From: Actinobacteria bacterium HGW-Actinobacteria-6
GTDB lineage: Bacteria; Actinomycetota; Coriobacteriia; Anaerosomatales; Anaerosomataceae
Assembly: GCA_002841295.1 (NCBI GenBank)
Contig: PHEU01000011.1
Span: 1-63,804, forward strand
Length of the DNA: 63,804 nucleotides
Reading direction: 5' to 3'
A model generated the notes under the pieces. It ran no database searches, was not told where the DNA came from, and saw nothing but the letters and a program-made list of their open reading frames with translations. Shown one piece after another: positions 39,373-53,656 of the stretch. A program made the translations under genes and the position numbers. Numbering within the stretch: position 1 is the first letter of the stretch; each line of letters begins with the position of its first letter.

Positions 39373-42300
39373 CTACCAGATCAGAGCACCGATGCTGGAA
39401 GCGACACCCGATGACACAACTGTTGTCCCGCCGAAGATGTCCACTCGCACAATCGAGCTCGCGTGTTGCACGAACTTAGCACGAGTGGCCGGACTCAGCA
39501 CGGCAGCGTCAGTCATGAGCAACACGCTGCCCTGCCGTCCGCACGCCGGACCTCCGGCAACCGCATCCGGGAAGTTGCGGCCGGTCGCAATGCCAACGCG
39601 CTCCCATGCGGCCCACCCGCGAGTGACCGCATCCTCGGCGACCAAACCGGCGGTCTCGTAGCGATTCGCACCAGCAAACCGGGCAACGCTCACGTCCGGC
39701 AACGCGTCGATCGCACTTGAGACATATCCAGAAATCGCGGACGTGGCACCGGGGATAAGCACGGTCTTGACGCCCAGACTCGTGATAGCGTTCTTGGTGT
39801 AGCCCGGCAGACTGGTCGGCCTGGTCAGAAGCACCGGCATCTTGTTGGCGAATGCGTAAGGCGAACACGCCAGTGCATCAGGGAAGTTATCACCTCTCGC
39901 AACATACGCAATCGGAGCGCCTCCCTCTCGCGCAGCGATCTCAGCTGCGATCTTGGCTGCAGTCTCGTAGCGGTCCTTTCCAGCAATCCGGCTGACGGCC
40001 ACGCCGGGTAGGCCCCCAACCGCGGTCATGACTCCAGACGAGACGGCGGAGGTTCCTCCGACTACGATTACGCGGGTGGCCCCGAGGCGCACGATTTCGT
40101 CTCGAACTGAATTGAGGAGTACGTCCGGCCTGGTTAACAGAACAGGGGCGTCATAACTACCGGCGAGTCCCGATGCCGAGAGCGCATCCGGGAACTGCAC
40201 GCCTGTCGCAAGGAGCACAACATCCGAGGTGTCCCAGTTCTGTCTACTGATCTGCGCGGCTGTCTGATAGCGATCGCTGCCAGCCAATCGCTGCAATGCA
40301 TCGATCGTCGAGAACGTCCACGAGGTGGTGAGCGCGTCCCCGTCGAGAGAAGCCAAGTCATCAACGAACACCGTATATTCCGTGCCGGACGCAAGTGGCT
40401 CATCGAGAGACAGCTCGACCGTCGCCGTGGCTGCGTCGTACTCGAGGGCGGCACCAAGACGGTCCGATCCATCAGTCACGTAGAGCGACTGCGAAGTGAG
40501 CGAAGCGGCATCCAGGCTCTTGGAGAACCTGATCGAGATCGGCGGGTTCGCCGTATCCACGGTATCGGACCCGGTCGGCGTCGCGTACTCCACCTCAAAC
40601 GGATAACGCAATGTCACCGGCACCTGAATCGCCGAGGGAGCCTCGGTCGGCCCCAGAACCACGAGACCTTCAAAGGTTCCGTTGCGATCAGCCAGCGTGC
40701 CTGACCTGGCCTTCGTCCAGTCGACGTCGAGCGCGAACCCACCTCCAGCGGAAATGGAGCCTGCCGGCACACCCGAGAGACTAAGCTCGTTGCCCATCGG
40801 TGCACTGATTTCAACGTCGAAGTCATCCGTGCCGCCCACAACGCTGTACCCATAGACCTCGACCGTAAATGTACCGTCGGTTGGCGAGTCGACCCTGACG
40901 TATTCATCGCCGGATCCCGATTCAGAAGCACCGACCAGCCGACCGCCTCCGTCATAGACATACAAATCGATATCCGACGAAGTCCCAGACGTAGACACCT
41001 CAAGGTACGCGGCGTCGGTAAGCGCAATATTGTGCCACCACGACGCACCCTGAATGACGGGGAACGATCCTTCGAACCGACGCGACAGACCATAGGCGCG
41101 TGCATGCGCACCGGTGAGTGCAAGCGACGTCGAGAAGTCGATCGTCGCGGTGCCGGAGTCAGCAGTGTCAACGATGGCAATTCGCGAAGGCACGACGGTA
41201 GCCAAACCGGCCTCGCCTGTAAACGGCAGCTCGCTGACCGAACCAGGCCAGACGACGTTATGAATCAACAACTGGTTCAGTCCGCTGCCGATCGGTCCCG
41301 CTACCCACTCCGATGTTCCGCCCGTATTTGTCTGAGGCAGCCAGAGTCCACCTGAGATGTTCGTGTTAGTCGACCCGCCGACATACGAGAGACCGCTAGG
41401 CCCAAAGACGGCTGGATTGTTCTTGGAGAATGCGTCAGCTGCGGTACCGTAGACCAGGGTGTCATTGTCTGCCTGAACCGATGTCGGTAATCCGGTGTCT
41501 GGCCAGTCTGTGTGGACAAGCCAGTACGCGCCGTCAGGAAGGGCCTCCTGCACGTCGGTTGTGAAGAAGCGCCAGTCGCCGGACTCGGCACGCCAGCTCC
41601 AATCTTGATACCCGAACATCTTCCCGTTCGGCATCAGGGTCTCCGGCGCAGCCGGGTCGTCTCCAAACTCGAAGTTCGCGCCCGACGCGGCGACGTTCAT
41701 ATGCACGGGAACGACCGTGATGTTCAGGCCGTCATCGATGCGATACTCACCCTCATAGACGCCGACAGGTGCGCTGGCCGGGACAGAGACACTGATAGGG
41801 ACCTGCTGAGTGGCGCCCGCCTGAAGCGTGAAGTTCTGCACACCCTCGGAAAGCCAAGGCTGGTCAGAGCGGGACCAGAACTCGACCCTTATCTGAACCG
41901 CCACGACGGGCGACACTGTAGCGCGTCTGCTGTGCTGCAGGCCGAGGAAGACACCGTCGATCTGGCGATCCTGGGGTCGCTGAACCCGAACCTGCTGGCT
42001 GTCGGCAAAGTTGCTCGCGTAGGTGAACCGCATGTATTCGCCCGCATCGATCTCTCCAGCGTTGACGAATCCGTTGGAATTCCCGTCTGACCAGAGCACT
42101 CCGTCGCCGTCCTGATCTTTCCAGTTATAGACAAGCAGCCGGGGAACATTGTGGTTGGTCACTCCGGTACTAAACGCGCCTGTGGGCGCGAATTCCGAAA
42201 ATGCCTCATGGGCCTTGATGACCATGAGATCCGCATCTGCTGCCTCAACGAGCGCGGTAATGTCGCGTACGGCATCCGGACGATTGAAGTCATACGCAGA

Positions 42301-44712
42301 TTCACCGGAGGCATTGAGCGTTATGGTCATCGTGGTGACGCTGTCCAATTGCAGCCACGAATCGCTCACAGCCACGTTGGCCGCGGTGCCTCCACTGTTC
42401 GTAATGCCAAGAGTGCCCGCGTGCGTCTCGCCAGGATGAACGAGGTTCACGTACGAGACATACTTCGTCCCCCGGTAGTCTCCGGGATACCAGACTGCCG
42501 GCGATACCCGCAGGCCAGCGCTGTCCGAGGCGAGCGCAACTGCCCGAGCGGCATTGATCATTCCCGCACCCTGCGTGAACGTGTCGTAGTTGAGGTCGGT
42601 CGCACCGTTCATGAGCAGATCGCGAGCAGCGCTCCAGTCGGGCCACGAACCGTGGGCGTCTTTGTACGCCTCGAACACCAACGCAAGGTTGCCGGTCGCC
42701 ACGGGGCACGAACGGCTCGTGCCGCCCCATACCGCCCAGGATCTCCAGCCATCGCCCGAGCCTTGGTTGAGCGCCAACGCACCCGAGGAGTAGGCACCAT
42801 CCGCAACGACTGCCGGGCCGAGATGGCCGGCGGCCGATGGGCCACGATTAGACCAAGGGATAACGTCGCCAACGTTGATTTGCTGCGCATCGAAAATAGA
42901 GTCCCAGCCACCGCACGCGCCCATCTGCGTGGACGCCCCAACGCCGATTCCGGTCGCTGGAGTCGGCGAACCGCTCGTTCCATAGCCCGGAGCCCCGTTG
43001 CCGGTCGAGAACAGGTACGAGACATCGGGGTTGTACTCGGTGTTCAGAAGCGCGACATAGCGAGAGCGGTAGTCCCACTCGTCTGCGTCATCTTCAGAAT
43101 CACCGTAGCTGTTTGAGACACACTGGATGTCGTCGGCGGTACCAGCGATCTCGTCGAGGCCAAAGGCCGCATAATCGTACGCGACCAACGTCGATGAGAA
43201 GTGGTTCCAGTAGATGTCGGACATCGCGACCAGCTCGGCATTCGGGGCTGCACCCTGGACTACGCCTGATCCATCTCCTTCCGGAGCCTTGAACGACGGG
43301 TAGACGCCGCCATCGACCCAGTAATCCGAAGCGCCGTCCGTGATGCCTCGGCCAACGACATTCGAAGCGCACAGCGTGCCGTGATTCTCATCGTAATTCA
43401 GCGCGCCCATGAAGCTGACCATCATGCCCGCACCCGGAGGTGTTACAGGCTCACCGATCATGAAGTCGTAGCCGGGAGGCTGGTTGACGCCGTCCGATAT
43501 CCAATACACCATGCCGCCAGACATGTCAGCGTAGCCGTCCGTGCCAGGCGCATCCACTTCACTGTCCCAATAGTCGAGATACGAGACCGGGTCCGACTTC
43601 GTGCACGGCTTGTCATTCGTGAAGTCATGATCCATATCGAGGTCGACATACACCGTGTCGTATACGCCCGACGTGTGTTCGTCCGAGACGAGCACCGCTG
43701 GATAACCCCACCACCATGCGTCGAGGTTCTCATCCCACAGGTAGCCCATGTGATAGACGCCTGAGACGCTACTCCCGGGAAACACCCAGTCCGAGGCGCC
43801 ATCAAAAACGGGCGAACCGGCCGTGACAGTTGCCGAACAATCTGTGAACCACGAATCGCCGTCGGCTACAAAGCTTGTGCCATAGATTCCGTCGTACGCA
43901 TACAGCAGGACGGAATACGGATCCAGCGCCTCCGGCCATCCGTAGTACGGAGATGCTGGATCCGTCACGGTGGCCTGCGTACCCATGAGGTCGGGATGGG
44001 CGAAATCAACACTGTCATCAGCCACGGCCACACGCACACCGGTGCCTGTATAACCCTGCGCCCACGCGCCCGCCGAGTTGTGACCGCTGGCGCTGACATC
44101 CCACCAACCTGTGGCGGCACCCCCATCAATGCCGGGAATGCTCACGGGTGTCGATCCATCAAACTGAGCCGCGAAATCATCGAGTACGCCAGCAGAACGG
44201 GCCGAGTCAATCCGCTGCTTCGCCTTGAGTGCCGCGGTCCGACGCGTGACCTTGGTTGGCTTCGACTTCTCCGGAATCGGTGGCGCCTCGCGTCGACCGT
44301 TCTCGAACACTCGGGTGACCTGCTTTTGCGAGGCCATCTTGACCAGATTGCCGACTTTGACTCGACCGACCCACAACTCATCTGTGTTCTCAGCTCGGAG
44401 CTTGATCTTCACGCTCCGCTCAAGCCCCTTGGGTGCCTTCATCCCATTGGACACCAGAACGGCAACATCAACGTACTTCGCCTTCGTGGTCTTATCTCTT
44501 GCTGTGCCCACCACGTTGGACAACCGCGAGTCCAGCTTGGTGCCAGCAATGTCCCCGGAGCCCGACGAGACCTTCATCGAGTCGGCCCTGGGAATCGAGG
44601 CTGACGTGGTCGGTTTGGCGGCGGCCGGCGCAGATCCTGACATGCCTGCGATCAACGCAACACAAACAAGACCGCTCCCTAAACGACGTGCGCCACGCGA
44701 CCGGTTCAACAT
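39373..44712 (-). CDS. Giant secreted subtilisin-like (S8) protease with cell-wall-binding repeats
   Basis: This 1779-residue surface or secreted serine protease has signal peptide LGSGLVCVALIAGMSGSAPAA. An N-terminal propeptide-like region (about 35-200) is followed by an S8 domain with Asp232 (VAVADDSVDFAHPD), His444 (DENHGT), oxyanion Asn572 (STGNGAPG) and Ser666 (WGGTSRSCP). The Asp-His distance of about 210 residues is far above the usual and holds a Trp/Tyr/Asp-rich insert with a Ca-binding-like DLDMDHDFTND. Later come beta-sandwich regions, a PPC-like domain (DIDLYVYDGGGRLVG), a Big_5-type Ig domain (about 1380-1470) and three CWB2 repeats (1473-1779). It should bind the wall through the repeats. 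A 20-base palindrome lies in its leader. Confidence 0.93.
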   Translation of the reverse strand: MLNRSRGARRLGSGLVCVALIAGMSGSAPAAAKPTTSASIPRADSMKVSSGSGDIAGTKLDSRLSNVVGTARDKTTKAKYVDVAVLVSNGMKAPKGLERSVKIKLRAENTDELWVGRVKVGNLVKMASQKQVTRVFENGRREAPPIPEKSKPTKVTRRTAALKAKQRIDSARSAGVLDDFAAQFDGSTPVSIPGIDGGAATGWWDVSASGHNSAGAWAQGYTGTGVRVAVADDSVDFAHPDLMGTQATVTDPASPYYGWPEALDPYSVLLYAYDGIYGTSFVADGDSWFTDCSATVTAGSPVFDGASDWVFPGSSVSGVYHMGYLWDENLDAWWWGYPAVLVSDEHTSGVYDTVYVDLDMDHDFTNDKPCTKSDPVSYLDYWDSEVDAPGTDGYADMSGGMVYWISDGVNQPPGYDFMIGEPVTPPGAGMMVSFMGALNYDENHGTLCASNVVGRGITDGASDYWVDGGVYPSFKAPEGDGSGVVQGAAPNAELVAMSDIYWNHFSSTLVAYDYAAFGLDEIAGTADDIQCVSNSYGDSEDDADEWDYRSRYVALLNTEYNPDVSYLFSTGNGAPGYGTSGSPTPATGIGVGASTQMGACGGWDSIFDAQQINVGDVIPWSNRGPSAAGHLGPAVVADGAYSSGALALNQGSGDGWRSWAVWGGTSRSCPVATGNLALVFEAYKDAHGSWPDWSAARDLLMNGATDLNYDTFTQGAGMINAARAVALASDSAGLRVSPAVWYPGDYRGTKYVSYVNLVHPGETHAGTLGITNSGGTAANVAVSDSWLQLDSVTTMTITLNASGESAYDFNRPDAVRDITALVEAADADLMVIKAHEAFSEFAPTGAFSTGVTNHNVPRLLVYNWKDQDGDGVLWSDGNSNGFVNAGEIDAGEYMRFTYASNFADSQQVRVQRPQDRQIDGVFLGLQHSRRATVSPVVAVQIRVEFWSRSDQPWLSEGVQNFTLQAGATQQVPISVSVPASAPVGVYEGEYRIDDGLNITVVPVHMNVAASGANFEFGDDPAAPETLMPNGKMFGYQDWSWRAESGDWRFFTTDVQEALPDGAYWLVHTDWPDTGLPTSVQADNDTLVYGTAADAFSKNNPAVFGPSGLSYVGGSTNTNISGGLWLPQTNTGGTSEWVAGPIGSGLNQLLIHNVVWPGSVSELPFTGEAGLATVVPSRIAIVDTADSGTATIDFSTSLALTGAHARAYGLSRRFEGSFPVIQGASWWHNIALTDAAYLEVSTSGTSSDIDLYVYDGGGRLVGASESGSGDEYVRVDSPTDGTFTVEVYGYSVVGGTDDFDVEISAPMGNELSLSGVPAGSISAGGGFALDVDWTKARSGTLADRNGTFEGLVVLGPTEAPSAIQVPVTLRYPFEVEYATPTGSDTVDTANPPISIRFSKSLDAASLTSQSLYVTDGSDRLGAALEYDAATATVELSLDEPLASGTEYTVFVDDLASLDGDALTTSWTFSTIDALQRLAGSDRYQTAAQISRQNWDTSDVVLLATGVQFPDALSASGLAGSYDAPVLLTRPDVLLNSVRDEIVRLGATRVIVVGGTSAVSSGVMTAVGGLPGVAVSRIAGKDRYETAAKIAAEIAAREGGAPIAYVARGDNFPDALACSPYAFANKMPVLLTRPTSLPGYTKNAITSLGVKTVLIPGATSAISGYVSSAIDALPDVSVARFAGANRYETAGLVAEDAVTRGWAAWERVGIATGRNFPDAVAGGPACGRQGSVLLMTDAAVLSPATRAKFVQHASSIVRVDIFGGTTVVSSGVASSIGALIW
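39376..40296 (-). repeat. Three cell-wall-binding type 2 (CWB2) repeats in the subtilase
   Basis: Three tandem units of about 102 residues start at RLAGSDRYQTA (about 1475), RIAGKDRYETA (1575) and RFAGANRYETA (1678). Each has the FPDAL or FPDAV motif and a GGTSAVS-like turn. Three such units form the trimeric wall-anchoring module known from clostridial S-layer proteins. Confidence 0.92.
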
Positions 44713-44819: not shown

Positions 44820-45929
44820 TCAGACCGGCTCGCTAGAAAGACCATCTGTACCGAGTACCTCCCGCAACCGATCAAAACGCCGTCGCTCGGAGCGCTCCAC
44901 CGTCGGCTTCCCGCTTGTCGAGACGTAGAAGATGCCGTCATACGATGCATCACCGTCTGCGATCTCGTTCGACGACGTGATCGCTTTGCGCAACGCTGAG
45001 AGCATGGGTGCGGAGTCCTTAAGCAACAACATTCCCTCTGCATCCGCTTTTTCGTGTCCCGATCGGTGAATAGCACGGCCCCAGGCCGTCACAAGCCAGG
45101 CGGCCGAGACCACGGCTAGATAGGTGAGCGCGATGACCACTGCCGCGAATACCGCCAGGCCGATGGCCGTAAGACACCCGCCCGCCGAATCGGCATCGCC
45201 GAAGCCGTCGAACAGGCACCCACAGCCCTCGTCCGCGCACCCCGGACTTGAGCAGCCAGCATCCGCGCACCCTGCAGCGATACCGCCCGCCGAGCCTCTC
45301 GAGTCTCGAATAGCCTTCAGTGGCCCCATGAGCGCTGCCATCGCAGTACCGATGAGAATATCGCCGCTGCGGATGCGCGCGACAAGTGTGGCCAAGACCG
45401 CACGTTGCTCGTCCACATCGAGTGTACCGAGCAATCCACGCGTGACGCCGATGACCGGGCGTGCGCGGCTCAGTCCAATGGCACACGCATTGACACTATC
45501 GGAGTCGAGGACGATAAGCCTTGGAGCCGCGGGGAGTCCCGACGCGAGCGTCATGTCTTCAAGCGCCTGCGACAGGCCGACTTCCGCGCCAGACTCAAGA
45601 TCGATGCCGCCGAATCTGCCCCGAACCCAATCCTCGGCGTTGGCGAGCTGTACTGCGGCGATGACCGCGCCAAGCGCAAGCATGAGGGCGAGCGTGCCCA
45701 GGAATACCCTGAGAATCCAGAGCCAGTAGCCAGAAGGATCGCCTGCTTCGCCGAACTCCAGCGCCCAGCCGATCAATGCGCCGGGTACGCCGATGAACGC
45801 GAGTGAAAGCAAGAACGCGGAACCAACCACGAACGACACCACAAATACAGCGAGTCTGACCCGATTCTGGTCAACGCGCACCCAGAGAGGCTGCGGCTTT
45901 ATCGCGCGCGGATGCCGAGTGCGCTCCAT
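44820..45929 (-). CDS. HtpX/M48-like membrane protein without the HExxH motif
   Basis: This 369-residue membrane protein resembles M48 HtpX proteases in layout. Two N-terminal membrane segments (LAVFVVSFVVGSAFLLSLAF; LRVFLGTLALMLALGAVIAA) are followed by LSQALEDMTLASGLPAAPRL and DSDSVNACAIGLSRARPVIGVTRGLLGTLD, matching the HtpX strand-helix region. The helix that should carry HExxH reads DEQRAVLATLVARI, so both zinc His residues and the catalytic Glu are gone. A Cys-rich insert (about 220-252, nine Cys) separates it from further membrane helices, and EKADAEGMLLLKD resembles the third-ligand helix. It begins 3 bases after ruvB. It is probably a pseudoprotease with a scaffold or regulatory role. 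Confidence 0.75.
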   Translation of the reverse strand: MERTRHPRAIKPQPLWVRVDQNRVRLAVFVVSFVVGSAFLLSLAFIGVPGALIGWALEFGEAGDPSGYWLWILRVFLGTLALMLALGAVIAAVQLANAEDWVRGRFGGIDLESGAEVGLSQALEDMTLASGLPAAPRLIVLDSDSVNACAIGLSRARPVIGVTRGLLGTLDVDEQRAVLATLVARIRSGDILIGTAMAALMGPLKAIRDSRGSAGGIAAGCADAGCSSPGCADEGCGCLFDGFGDADSAGGCLTAIGLAVFAAVVIALTYLAVVSAAWLVTAWGRAIHRSGHEKADAEGMLLLKDSAPMLSALRKAITSSNEIADGDASYDGIFYVSTSGKPTVERSERRRFDRLREVLGTDGLSSEPV

Positions 45930-45932
45930 GCG

Positions 45933-46997
45933 CTACAGCAGGCTTTCCTGGCCAGGCTCGCCCGCCGGAGGACGCAAGCCGAGGTGCTGATACGCACGCG
46001 CAGTCGCCTGCCGACCTTTCGGGGTGCGGATGATGAATCCGAGTTGAAGTAGGTACGGCTCGTACACATCCTCGAGCGTATCAGTCTCCTCGCTCACAGC
46101 CGCCGCGAGCGTGTTCAAGCCAACCGCACGCCCACCAAACTTTGTCGTGAGCGTCTCCAGGATCGAGATGTCCATACGATCCAGCCCAACATGGTCGACC
46201 TCAAAGAACGCGAGGGCCTCGGCAGCGATATCCTCGGTGATCTGACCGTCATGCCGCACCTGTGCGTAGTCGCGAACACGCTTGAGCAAGCGGTTGGCTA
46301 GCCGTGGGGTCCCGCGCGAACGCCGCGAAATCTCATTGGCGCCGTCATCTGTTATCGGCACAGACAGAATGCTCGCCGAGCGACGCACGATGTCCGAGAG
46401 TTCAAGTGGGGTGTAGTAGTCCAACCGGAATGCCATGCCGAATCGGTCGCGCAGAGGGCCCGTGAGCAGCCCTGTTCGAGTCGTAGCACCGATTAATGTG
46501 AAGCGCGGCAAATCAAGCCTGAGCGAGCGTGCAGCCGGACCCTTCCCGATGATGATGTCCAGTGAGAAGTCCTCCATCGCGGGATAGAGAACCTCCTCCA
46601 CGGCACGATTGAGGCGATGGATCTCATCGATGAAGAGGACGTCGCGCTCCTCAAGGTTAGTGAGAATCGCCGCGAGGTCACCCGCCCTCTCGATCGCAGG
46701 TCCACTCGTGGTCTTCAGCTGAACGTCGAGCTCAGCCGCTACAACTCCCGCAAGCGTCGTCTTGCCTAATCCGGGAGGTCCAGACAGCAAGATGTGGTCG
46801 AGCGGCTCGTCGCGTGCTCGTGTGGCCTCGATGAGCACGCTGAGGTTCTCTTTCACGCGCGTCTGACCCAGATAATCCTGCAGTCGCTTCGGGCGCAGGT
46901 TTCGGTCAATCTCAAGGTCGTCCTCGGTATGCTCCGCCGAGACCAGCCGCTCCGCATCGGGCGATGACCACTGGTCGTCTTCCCATACAGTGCTCAT
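45933..46997 (-). CDS. ruvB: Holliday junction branch migration ATPase RuvB
   Basis: This 354-residue hexameric AAA+ motor drives branch migration with RuvA. Walker A is [12 protein letters not shown], Walker B is [25 protein letters not shown], and sensor 1 is [20 protein letters not shown]. The C-terminal winged helix ends [23 protein letters not shown]. The ATG at 46997 overlaps the ruvA stop (TGATG), with GGGGGAGG upstream. Confidence 0.97.
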
Positions 46998-47584
46998 CAC
47001 ACACCTCCCCCGAGACGGCGAAGCGCATGCCTCAGCAGCGACTGGCTGTCATCAGGAGCGCCATCGTACTTGTCGAGAGCCGTTGCGACCTCGGCTGCCG
47101 AGAACCCCATGCTGAGCAGCGCGTCGCGGGCCTCGGCATGGACGCTAGCTCCGGCGCGTGCGCCACCGGTTGTCAGATCAGGAACCCCGAGCTTGTCCTT
47201 GAGTTCAATGATGACCCGCTGGGCGGTCTTCTTGCCGACACCGGGAATCGAGCTCAAGAGTGCAACATCCTCATGCGCCACCGCTTCCGCGAATGCTGAA
47301 GGGCGGAACGACGACAGTGCTGAAAGCGCAACCCTGGGACCGATACCACTCACTGTTATGAGCTTCTCGAAAAGTGTCTTCTCGTCCGAACTCTCGAAGC
47401 CGTAAAGCGAGAGCTCGTCTTCGCGAACCTGGAGGTGTGTCCTGACCGTCACAGAATCACCCTCGGCAGGGAGTGATGCAAGTGAACCCGTGGACATTGC
47501 AATGTGCAGACCAATGCCGCCCACGTCGAGAACCACATGACCTGCGCCCTTTTCGGCTATGCGACCGGTCACGAAATCTATCAC
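46997..47584 (-). CDS. ruvA: Holliday junction DNA helicase subunit RuvA
   Basis: This 195-residue junction-binding subunit has the N-terminal OB fold ([21 protein letters not shown]). Helix-hairpin-helix motifs follow ([44 protein letters not shown]). A C-terminal domain that contacts RuvB ([19 protein letters not shown]) ends the protein. It is coupled to ruvC (ATGA overlap) and ruvB. Confidence 0.96.
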
Positions 47585-48072
47585 AGCGCGGCCCTCGCCA
47601 GCGCGACACCAGTACGCGCGTTCGCGTGGCAGATCGCAGCCGCAAGCGCGTCCGCAGCGTGGTCGGGCTTGGGTTCATCCTTCAGGCCGAGTACGATTCG
47701 CACCATGTACTGCACCTGGTGCTTATCGGCATCACCCGCGCCCACGACCGCGAGCTTGATCTCACCTGGACCATACTCCCCGACCGGGATGCCCTTGGCA
47801 GCAAGTATCGCCACACCACGCGCCTGCCCGGTCGCAAATGCCGTCTTGGCATTATTGGAGAAGTACACGCTCTCCACAGATGCCTCAACGGGTCGGTAGC
47901 GCTCAACGACCCCGCACAGTGACTCGTGGATGCGAGCAAGCCTCTCAGGAAGCGGCATCGCACTCTCAGTTGTGATGCACCCATACGCCACACAACGAAA
48001 GTGCGAGCCGGACGTCTCTATGACGCCCCACCCCGTATTTGCGAGACCTGGATCGATGCCGAGGATGATCAC
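47581..48072 (-). CDS. ruvC: Crossover junction endonuclease RuvC
   Basis: This 163-residue Holliday junction resolvase has catalytic acids in LGIDPGLANTGWG, the Glu in ASVESVYFSNN, and the Asp pair in KPDHAADALAAAICH. The GTG start at 48072 has GAGAGGA upstream. A LexA-type box and promoter lie just before it, so the ruvCAB unit is likely SOS-induced. Confidence 0.96.
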   Translation of the reverse strand: MIILGIDPGLANTGWGVIETSGSHFRCVAYGCITTESAMPLPERLARIHESLCGVVERYRPVEASVESVYFSNNAKTAFATGQARGVAILAAKGIPVGEYGPGEIKLAVVGAGDADKHQVQYMVRIVLGLKDEPKPDHAADALAAAICHANARTGVALARAAL

Positions 48073-48097: not shown

Positions 48098-48110
48098 CGA
48101 ACATATGTTC
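48098..48110 (-). promoter_or_regulatory. LexA (SOS) box before ruvCAB
   Basis: CGAACATATGTTC (next base A on the plus strand) matches the Gram-positive/actinobacterial LexA consensus CGAACnnnnGTTCG in 13 of 14 positions. It lies directly after the -10 of the ruvC promoter, where bound repressor would block RNA polymerase. Confidence 0.75.
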
Positions 48111-52762: not shown

Positions 52763-53656
52763 TCACATTCCTTCCAGTCGCGCGATGCGCTCGTCGAGCG
52801 GCGGATGCGTGTTGAATAGTGAATTCATCCCCGCGCGGTAGTCCTTGAGCGGGTTGTAGATGTACATCGAAGCGGTCGCCTTGTTCGCCGAGCGGAGCTT
52901 GTTGTTGTCCGCGGCTATCTTCTTGAGCGCGCCCGCAAGTCCCGCCGGGTACCGCGTGAGAAGTGCGCCGTTCGCGTCTGCCAGGAACTCACGCTTCCGG
53001 GAGATGGCCATCTGGATGAGCAGCGCAAATATCGGCGCCAGAAGCGCCAGCACGAGCCCGACGACCATGAAGATGATCTGGATCTGGCCTCCGCCCTCGT
53101 TGCTGCTGCGACGCCTGCCCCCGCCCCACCAAAACGAGTGAAGCATCCAATCCGAGAGAAGCACTACGGTGCCCGCAAGCACTGCGGCGAGCGTCTGCAC
53201 CAGCGTGTCGTAGTTCTTAACGTGCGACAGCTCGTGAGCTATAACGCCTTCGAGTTCCAGGCGATCCAGCTTCTCAACCAGGCCGGTCGTCACCGCTATG
53301 GCCGCGTGCTCAGGGTTCCTGCCAGTGGCGAAGGCATTCGGCGCAGGGTCATCGATCACATACGCCTTGGGGACCGGCAGTCCAGCCGCGATGGCGAGGC
53401 CCTCGACCGTGTTGACGATATATGGCTCACGATCGCGATCAACGAGTCGCGCCCGGCTCATCGAAAGCACAATTTTGTCCGAGTACCAGTAAGAACCCCA
53501 CGCCATGGCGAACGAGACACCGATGGCGGCGAGCAGCCCCCAGTAGCTCCACCCCATCGCTTCACCGAACACATAGCCGATGCCCACGACAAGCAGAACG
53601 AAGACGCCCATGAGCGCCGCGCTGCGAAACTTGTTGGAAGATATTTGGTCGTACAC
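52763..53656 (-). CDS. htpX: M48 membrane zinc protease HtpX
   Basis: This 297-residue membrane protease for quality control of membrane proteins has two N-terminal membrane segments. Its zinc motif is intact: LEGVIAHELSHVKN has HELSH, and the third ligand lies in SRKREFLADANGALLTRYP. THPPLDERIARLEGM ends the protein as usual. It is followed by lgt and preceded by a lemA-like gene, a frequent pairing. It offers a useful comparison for the HExxH-less homologue at 44820. Confidence 0.95.
   Translation of the reverse strand: MYDQISSNKFRSAALMGVFVLLVVGIGYVFGEAMGWSYWGLLAAIGVSFAMAWGSYWYSDKIVLSMSRARLVDRDREPYIVNTVEGLAIAAGLPVPKAYVIDDPAPNAFATGRNPEHAAIAVTTGLVEKLDRLELEGVIAHELSHVKNYDTLVQTLAAVLAGTVVLLSDWMLHSFWWGGGRRRSSNEGGGQIQIIFMVVGLVLALLAPIFALLIQMAISRKREFLADANGALLTRYPAGLAGALKKIAADNNKLRSANKATASMYIYNPLKDYRAGMNSLFNTHPPLDERIARLEGM

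Follow-up and report, generated by a model that had tools for sequence, protein, structure and literature searches.

Membrane pseudoproteases are well studied among rhomboids, and pseudoenzymes often regulate their active relatives. In the M48 protease BepA, the edge strand, which begins at Asn-105 to Phe-110, serves both cutting and a chaperone-like function, and the latter is enabled once the protease is switched off (PMC8423444). The role of ZMPSTE24 in viral restriction does not depend on catalysis, and IFITM3 is bound more strongly by its dead mutant (PMC9601121). The bacterial YqgP works as an adaptor of FtsH independently of its own protease activity (PMC7231995). Our literature search, which did not reach most subscription journals, returned no paper with both HtpX and 'pseudoprotease', and HtpX, M48, ruv and SOS are all unmentioned in the paper describing the Anaerosomatales.

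Here we characterise a putative HtpX-derived pseudoprotease encoded in a window of 63,804 nt, by which we mean the whole stretch of DNA that was analysed (Table 1). The open reading frame, for which the original prediction had given no strand, is real and lies on the minus strand. It starts 3 nt past the ruvB stop and is, as had been proposed, the last gene of the ruvCAB unit, preceded on the same strand by ruvC, ruvA and ruvB in this order, the three ruv genes overlapping at their ends. No promoter-like site was found in the region between ruvB and the pseudoprotease gene. Two terminator-like matches between the two genes were at the level of shuffled sequence and are not convincing as a terminator of the gene's own. 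The true HtpX with HELSH that had been claimed for the same window is indeed present. Just downstream of the pseudoprotease gene there is a minus-strand open reading frame of 1779 aa (39373-44712), which by eye looks like a subtilisin-like protein that is secreted and whose C-terminal end has repeats of the cell-wall-binding type.

Table 1. Coordinates of the genes, the operator and the protein segments discussed in the text, in positions of the window
Feature	Position	Strand	Remarks
Putative HtpX-derived pseudoprotease, subfamily A	44820..45929	-	369 aa, ATG start at 45929
ruvB	45933..47000	-	immediately upstream of the pseudoprotease gene
ruvA	46997..47584	-	named from sequence and synteny
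ruvC	47581..48072	-	named from sequence and synteny
LexA-type operator GAACATATGTTC	48099..48110	.	yebC-ruvC gap, upstream of ruvC
HtpX, comparison protein	52763..53656	-	complete active site (HELSH, REFLAD)
Edge-strand start, residues 147-152, NACAIG	45474..45491	-	at the NAFATG position of HtpX
Helix that carries HExxH in HtpX, here residues 172-188, VDEQRAVLATLVARIRS	45366..45416	-	TLVAR (181-185) replaces HExxH
Gly/Cys/Asp-rich insert, residues 209-252, six Cys	45174..45305	-	just before the last hydrophobic segment
Residues 289-305, RSGHEKADAEGMLLLKD	45015..45065	-	aligns with HtpX REFLADANG, home of the third zinc ligand

That the protein is by fold and ancestry a true relative of M48/HtpX is strongly supported. 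The Pfam model Peptidase_M48 (PF01435) matched it with 36.2 bits (E 6.8e-9), above the curated cut-off of 20.3, which places it in this family. The NCBIfam HtpX models gave partial matches, and the best score, 64 bits, stayed below the equivalog cut-off of 355 that marks active HtpX. The solved HtpX domain 3cqb was matched with an E value of 8.9e-6, or 5.3e-10 when the family profile was used. An AlphaFold2 model computed from 52 family sequences reached a mean pLDDT of 83.9 and a pTM of 0.78, and the only segment below 50 was residues 223-245 within the Cys-rich loop. As Foldseek alone gave only an E value of about 3e-3, a second alignment by VIA-align was needed. Its best match was the HtpX domain 3cqb_B (Z 12.8, 2.9 A over 97 residues with 30% identity), followed by BepA 6sar (Z 12.2), Ste24 (Z 11.7), ZMPSTE24, other M48 proteins and BlaR1, which indicates an M48 fold for the predicted model. 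On its own, a Z near 12 would be a modest value when the model is helical, but M48 relatives head the list, in agreement with the sequence evidence. Hydrophobic segments at residues 22-59, 67-99 and 246-284, together with a weaker helix at 190-223, put predicted membrane segments on both sides of the former catalytic helix. The HtpX-like fold of the original prediction, for which a profile search and a structure prediction had been suggested as checks, is borne out by both.

In both alignments to 3cqb (single sequence and family profile), the HExxH helix of HtpX lies opposite QRAVLATLVARI, and the helix DEQRAVLATLVARI occupies its place. The loss of HExxH had been claimed already, and TLVAR does stand at the aligned position. 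Among the 52 aligned family sequences, the first His column carries Asn, Thr or Ala and rarely Met or Pro, the catalytic Glu column is an invariant Leu182 and the second His column an invariant Arg185. The third zinc ligand of active HtpX, a Glu four residues before the conserved Asp, is replaced by His, Tyr, Ala or Ser in all 52. Glu293, one residue after this column, is invariant, as is Asp296, so that R176, L182, R185, E293 and D296 are each found in 52/52. None of the 52 has HExxH at the aligned position, and the motif is absent elsewhere in the window protein and in every relative, which rules out its relocation, whereas all 37 HtpX proteins examined keep it. An altered motif common to all 52 sequences is more than chance. 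Among the closest subfamily A genes, the pairs with finite dS gave dN/dS values of 0.076-0.102, dS being high for some pairs; values of about 0.08-0.10 indicate purifying selection, and together with the invariant columns they rule out gene decay. The sequences thus strongly support the loss of all three zinc ligands and of the catalytic Glu, in other words a catalytically dead M48 pseudoprotease. The missing third ligand, the family-wide dead state and the second paralogue behind the his operon go beyond what had been predicted. A salt bridge between the invariant Arg185 and Glu293 may have replaced the zinc, and some other new function of the remodelled site is possible.

Among the genomes of relatives, 59 of 61 gave matches, ordinary HtpX included. 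The pseudoproteases fall into two main subfamilies, A (with the Cys insert, 54-75% identity) and B (without it, mostly 26-37%), beside a few divergent C members; subfamily A was found in 21 of the 61 genomes. In a tree rooted on HtpX, in which L046_C2 forms a long branch, A, B and C together separate from HtpX with an SH-aLRT of 100 (A clade 99, B 92). A monophyletic, order-wide pseudoprotease family is strongly supported by this sequence tree, and the simplest way to read it is that an ancestor within the order lost catalysis once and that duplication followed. Across 248 genomes of the class, strong full-length matches came from the same order only, and two genomes of other families gave weak and partial ones. 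Across 296 genomes of the phylum, matches from beyond the order had scores like those of HtpX, and HExxH is kept in all eight that were fetched; a wider spread was rejected on these grounds. In the searches made, the family turned up in a single order of Coriobacteriia, probably Anaerosomatales/OPB41.

Several members deserve separate mention. The genome of the window also encodes a sister B pseudoprotease without the Cys insert, located behind histidine biosynthesis genes (G000:C36:8487-9563; L031:4976-6067). C-type members occur as tandem pairs in two genomes (L042:4055-6313 and L048:4161-5840), and some B proteins have C-terminal extensions to about 560 aa (L026, L028, L029, L030). The subfamily A gene of G035 is split across two frames (L020:1495-2608) by a frameshift or an assembly error. 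Three B-type members (L080, L098 and L103) come from MAGs titled Slackia, Geobacter and Aeromicrobium, titles which look misnamed.

SOS control of the operon, only asserted in the original prediction, is well supported by a conserved LexA-type box upstream of ruvC. The string GAACNNNNGTTC has a single exact occurrence in the window, at 48099-48110; the operator sits at the operon promoter, as in members of the LexA (SOS) regulon. The sequence GAACATA(T/C)GTTCGAT was found 36-62 nt 5' of the ruvC start in all 11 relatives with subfamily A whose ruvC promoter was read. Of 26 ruvB loci from genomes that lack A, 22 have the GAACNNNNGTTC box as well, so ruvCAB appears to be generally LexA-controlled in the order, and A would inherit this control.

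Regarding function, Asn147-Ala148 is invariant across the family and aligned with the NAF of HtpX. From this NA motif and the structural match, residues 147-152 would correspond to the BepA edge strand. An M48 protein that is dead but keeps its membrane helices and the edge strand is most likely to bind clients and leave them uncut. Our preferred reading, to which we assign a probability of roughly 0.45, is that a membrane-anchored dead descendant of HtpX is expressed with ruvCAB from a LexA-controlled promoter and binds membrane-protein clients uncut. The retained edge strand and membrane helices would bind unfolded or unassembled segments of membrane proteins, and the bound clients would be held, as by a chaperone, or handed over, as by an adaptor for another membrane protease such as FtsH. 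DNA damage would derepress ruvCAB so that more of the pseudoprotease is made, the ruv link setting the timing; direct contact with RuvAB would not be needed and is thought unlikely.

The ruvB link, whose conservation had been left to be checked, holds in related genomes: all 18 informative ones have ruvB upstream of A and in the same orientation. The distance between the two genes is 0-4 nt in ten genomes and 102 nt in another, and it amounts to 375-2569 nt in the other seven; in L007 the gap contains a cold-shock gene. In 26 genomes without A, unrelated sequence follows ruvB, and the neighbourhood of A showed no chaperone or protease gene that recurs consistently. Since A is missing from many genomes of the order, its function is dispensable. 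For subfamily B, 34 of 35 informative loci have the gene behind hisE or hisI, where it closes a hisB-H-A-F-I-E run, as a rule no more than 100 nt away. Of the original interpretation, the last place behind ruvCAB, the SOS control and the conserved ruvB link are supported. A functional tie to DNA repair is weakened because sister B holds the same end-of-operon position behind hisE/hisI, because most genomes of the order are without A yet have the same LexA-controlled ruvCAB, and because 7 of 18 genomes have 375-2569 nt between ruvB and A. For co-expression the SOS link is good evidence, for a function shared with RuvAB it is weak evidence. With a sister copy at the end of the histidine operon, the role is probably in binding membrane proteins rather than in DNA repair.

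The same observations would suit a membrane pseudoprotease without any role in DNA damage, whose paralogues settled behind strong operons (ruvCAB and his) and whose LexA control is incidental. The his location of B, the widened gap and the frequent loss or absence of A where LexA-controlled ruvCAB stays all fit this; however, the ruvB linkage is unbroken in all 18 informative genomes, down to 54-56% identity, and the short gap is kept in ten, and we regard such an incidental placement as unlikely. Another explanation takes the SOS link at face value: under DNA damage, the protein would bind a division or envelope protein and delay division or remodel the membrane. YneA, SosA and DivS are SOS-induced membrane division inhibitors of other Gram-positives, unrelated to the pseudoprotease, and a membrane protein in a LexA-controlled operon with the 18/18 ruvB linkage could be of this kind. 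Nevertheless, the known inhibitors are, to our knowledge, all small proteins and none is M48-like, most genomes of the order have a working LexA-controlled ruvCAB and no A, and sister B sits behind the his operon, all of which makes a checkpoint effector quite improbable.

The Cys-rich insert was described in the original prediction as having nine Cys, which was a miscount: there are six in the insert (221, 226, 231, 236, 238 and 252) and seven in the whole protein. Residues 223-245 of the insert are modelled with low confidence, and the loop is predicted to be disordered. The inserts of orthologues contain 4 to 8 Cys with varying spacing, and the columns 226, 231, 238 and 252 hold Cys in 18-19 of 19 subfamily A sequences. 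The loop could be a flexible redox- or metal-responsive element particular to subfamily A. A sensor role, in which metal binding or disulfide formation in the loop would be signalled through the M48-like domain, is suggested by the four columns; given the variable Cys content, the predicted disorder and a sister subfamily without the loop, we consider this very unlikely.

A regulator or decoy of active HtpX, as had also been proposed, would agree with the habit of pseudoenzymes to control active relatives and with the fact that in several genomes A and HtpX share a contig, no more than about 8-12 kb apart, but it is highly improbable and disfavoured as a general role, because protein and Pfam searches detected no catalytic HtpX in six A-bearing genomes (G027, G042, G048, G049, G056 and G036) and HtpX occurs without A in many others. 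These six are at least 95% complete, G056 showing further weak matches in the class-wide search; a gene may be lacking from a draft assembly, but for this to happen six times at 95-100% completeness is unlikely.

Returning to client binding without cutting, a wider formulation would be that one subfamily of an order-specific, monophyletic family of M48 pseudoproteases became a DNA-damage-induced membrane client-binder, linking the RuvCAB response with the quality control of membrane proteins or with cell division; in this full form we hold it to be doubtful. A conserved family of dead HtpX proteins that spans an order and has one LexA-controlled branch would be a case in which nature has parted client binding from cutting in the M48 fold. 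It would also point to a membrane function linked to SOS in a lineage of which few members are in culture.

Compared with HtpX (PF01435; 3cqb and the HtpX of the window), the pseudoprotease has in common the M48 domain fold, the N-terminal membrane segments, a hydrophobic segment before the C-terminal motif, the ADAEGMLL/ADANGALL segment and the C-terminal helix. It differs in lacking HExxH and the third-ligand Glu, in its Gly/Cys loop and invariant Arg185/Glu293, and in being about 70 residues longer, with about 30% identity over the domain. With the E. coli M48 protein BepA (6ait/6sar) it shares the M48 core (Z about 12), and BepA is the precedent for a chaperone-like function through the edge strand with proteolysis off; BepA, however, is active as a protease in the periplasm and has a TPR domain, whereas the pseudoprotease has neither TPR domain nor zinc site. 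Ste24/ZMPSTE24 are likewise membrane M48 proteins, with a catalysis-independent role reported for ZMPSTE24, but have a multi-helix membrane chamber and an active zinc site. The rhomboid pseudoproteases (iRhoms and Derlins) and YqgP as FtsH adaptor belong to an unrelated serine protease family and offer an analogy in the way of working, a membrane protease fold that binds clients uncut.
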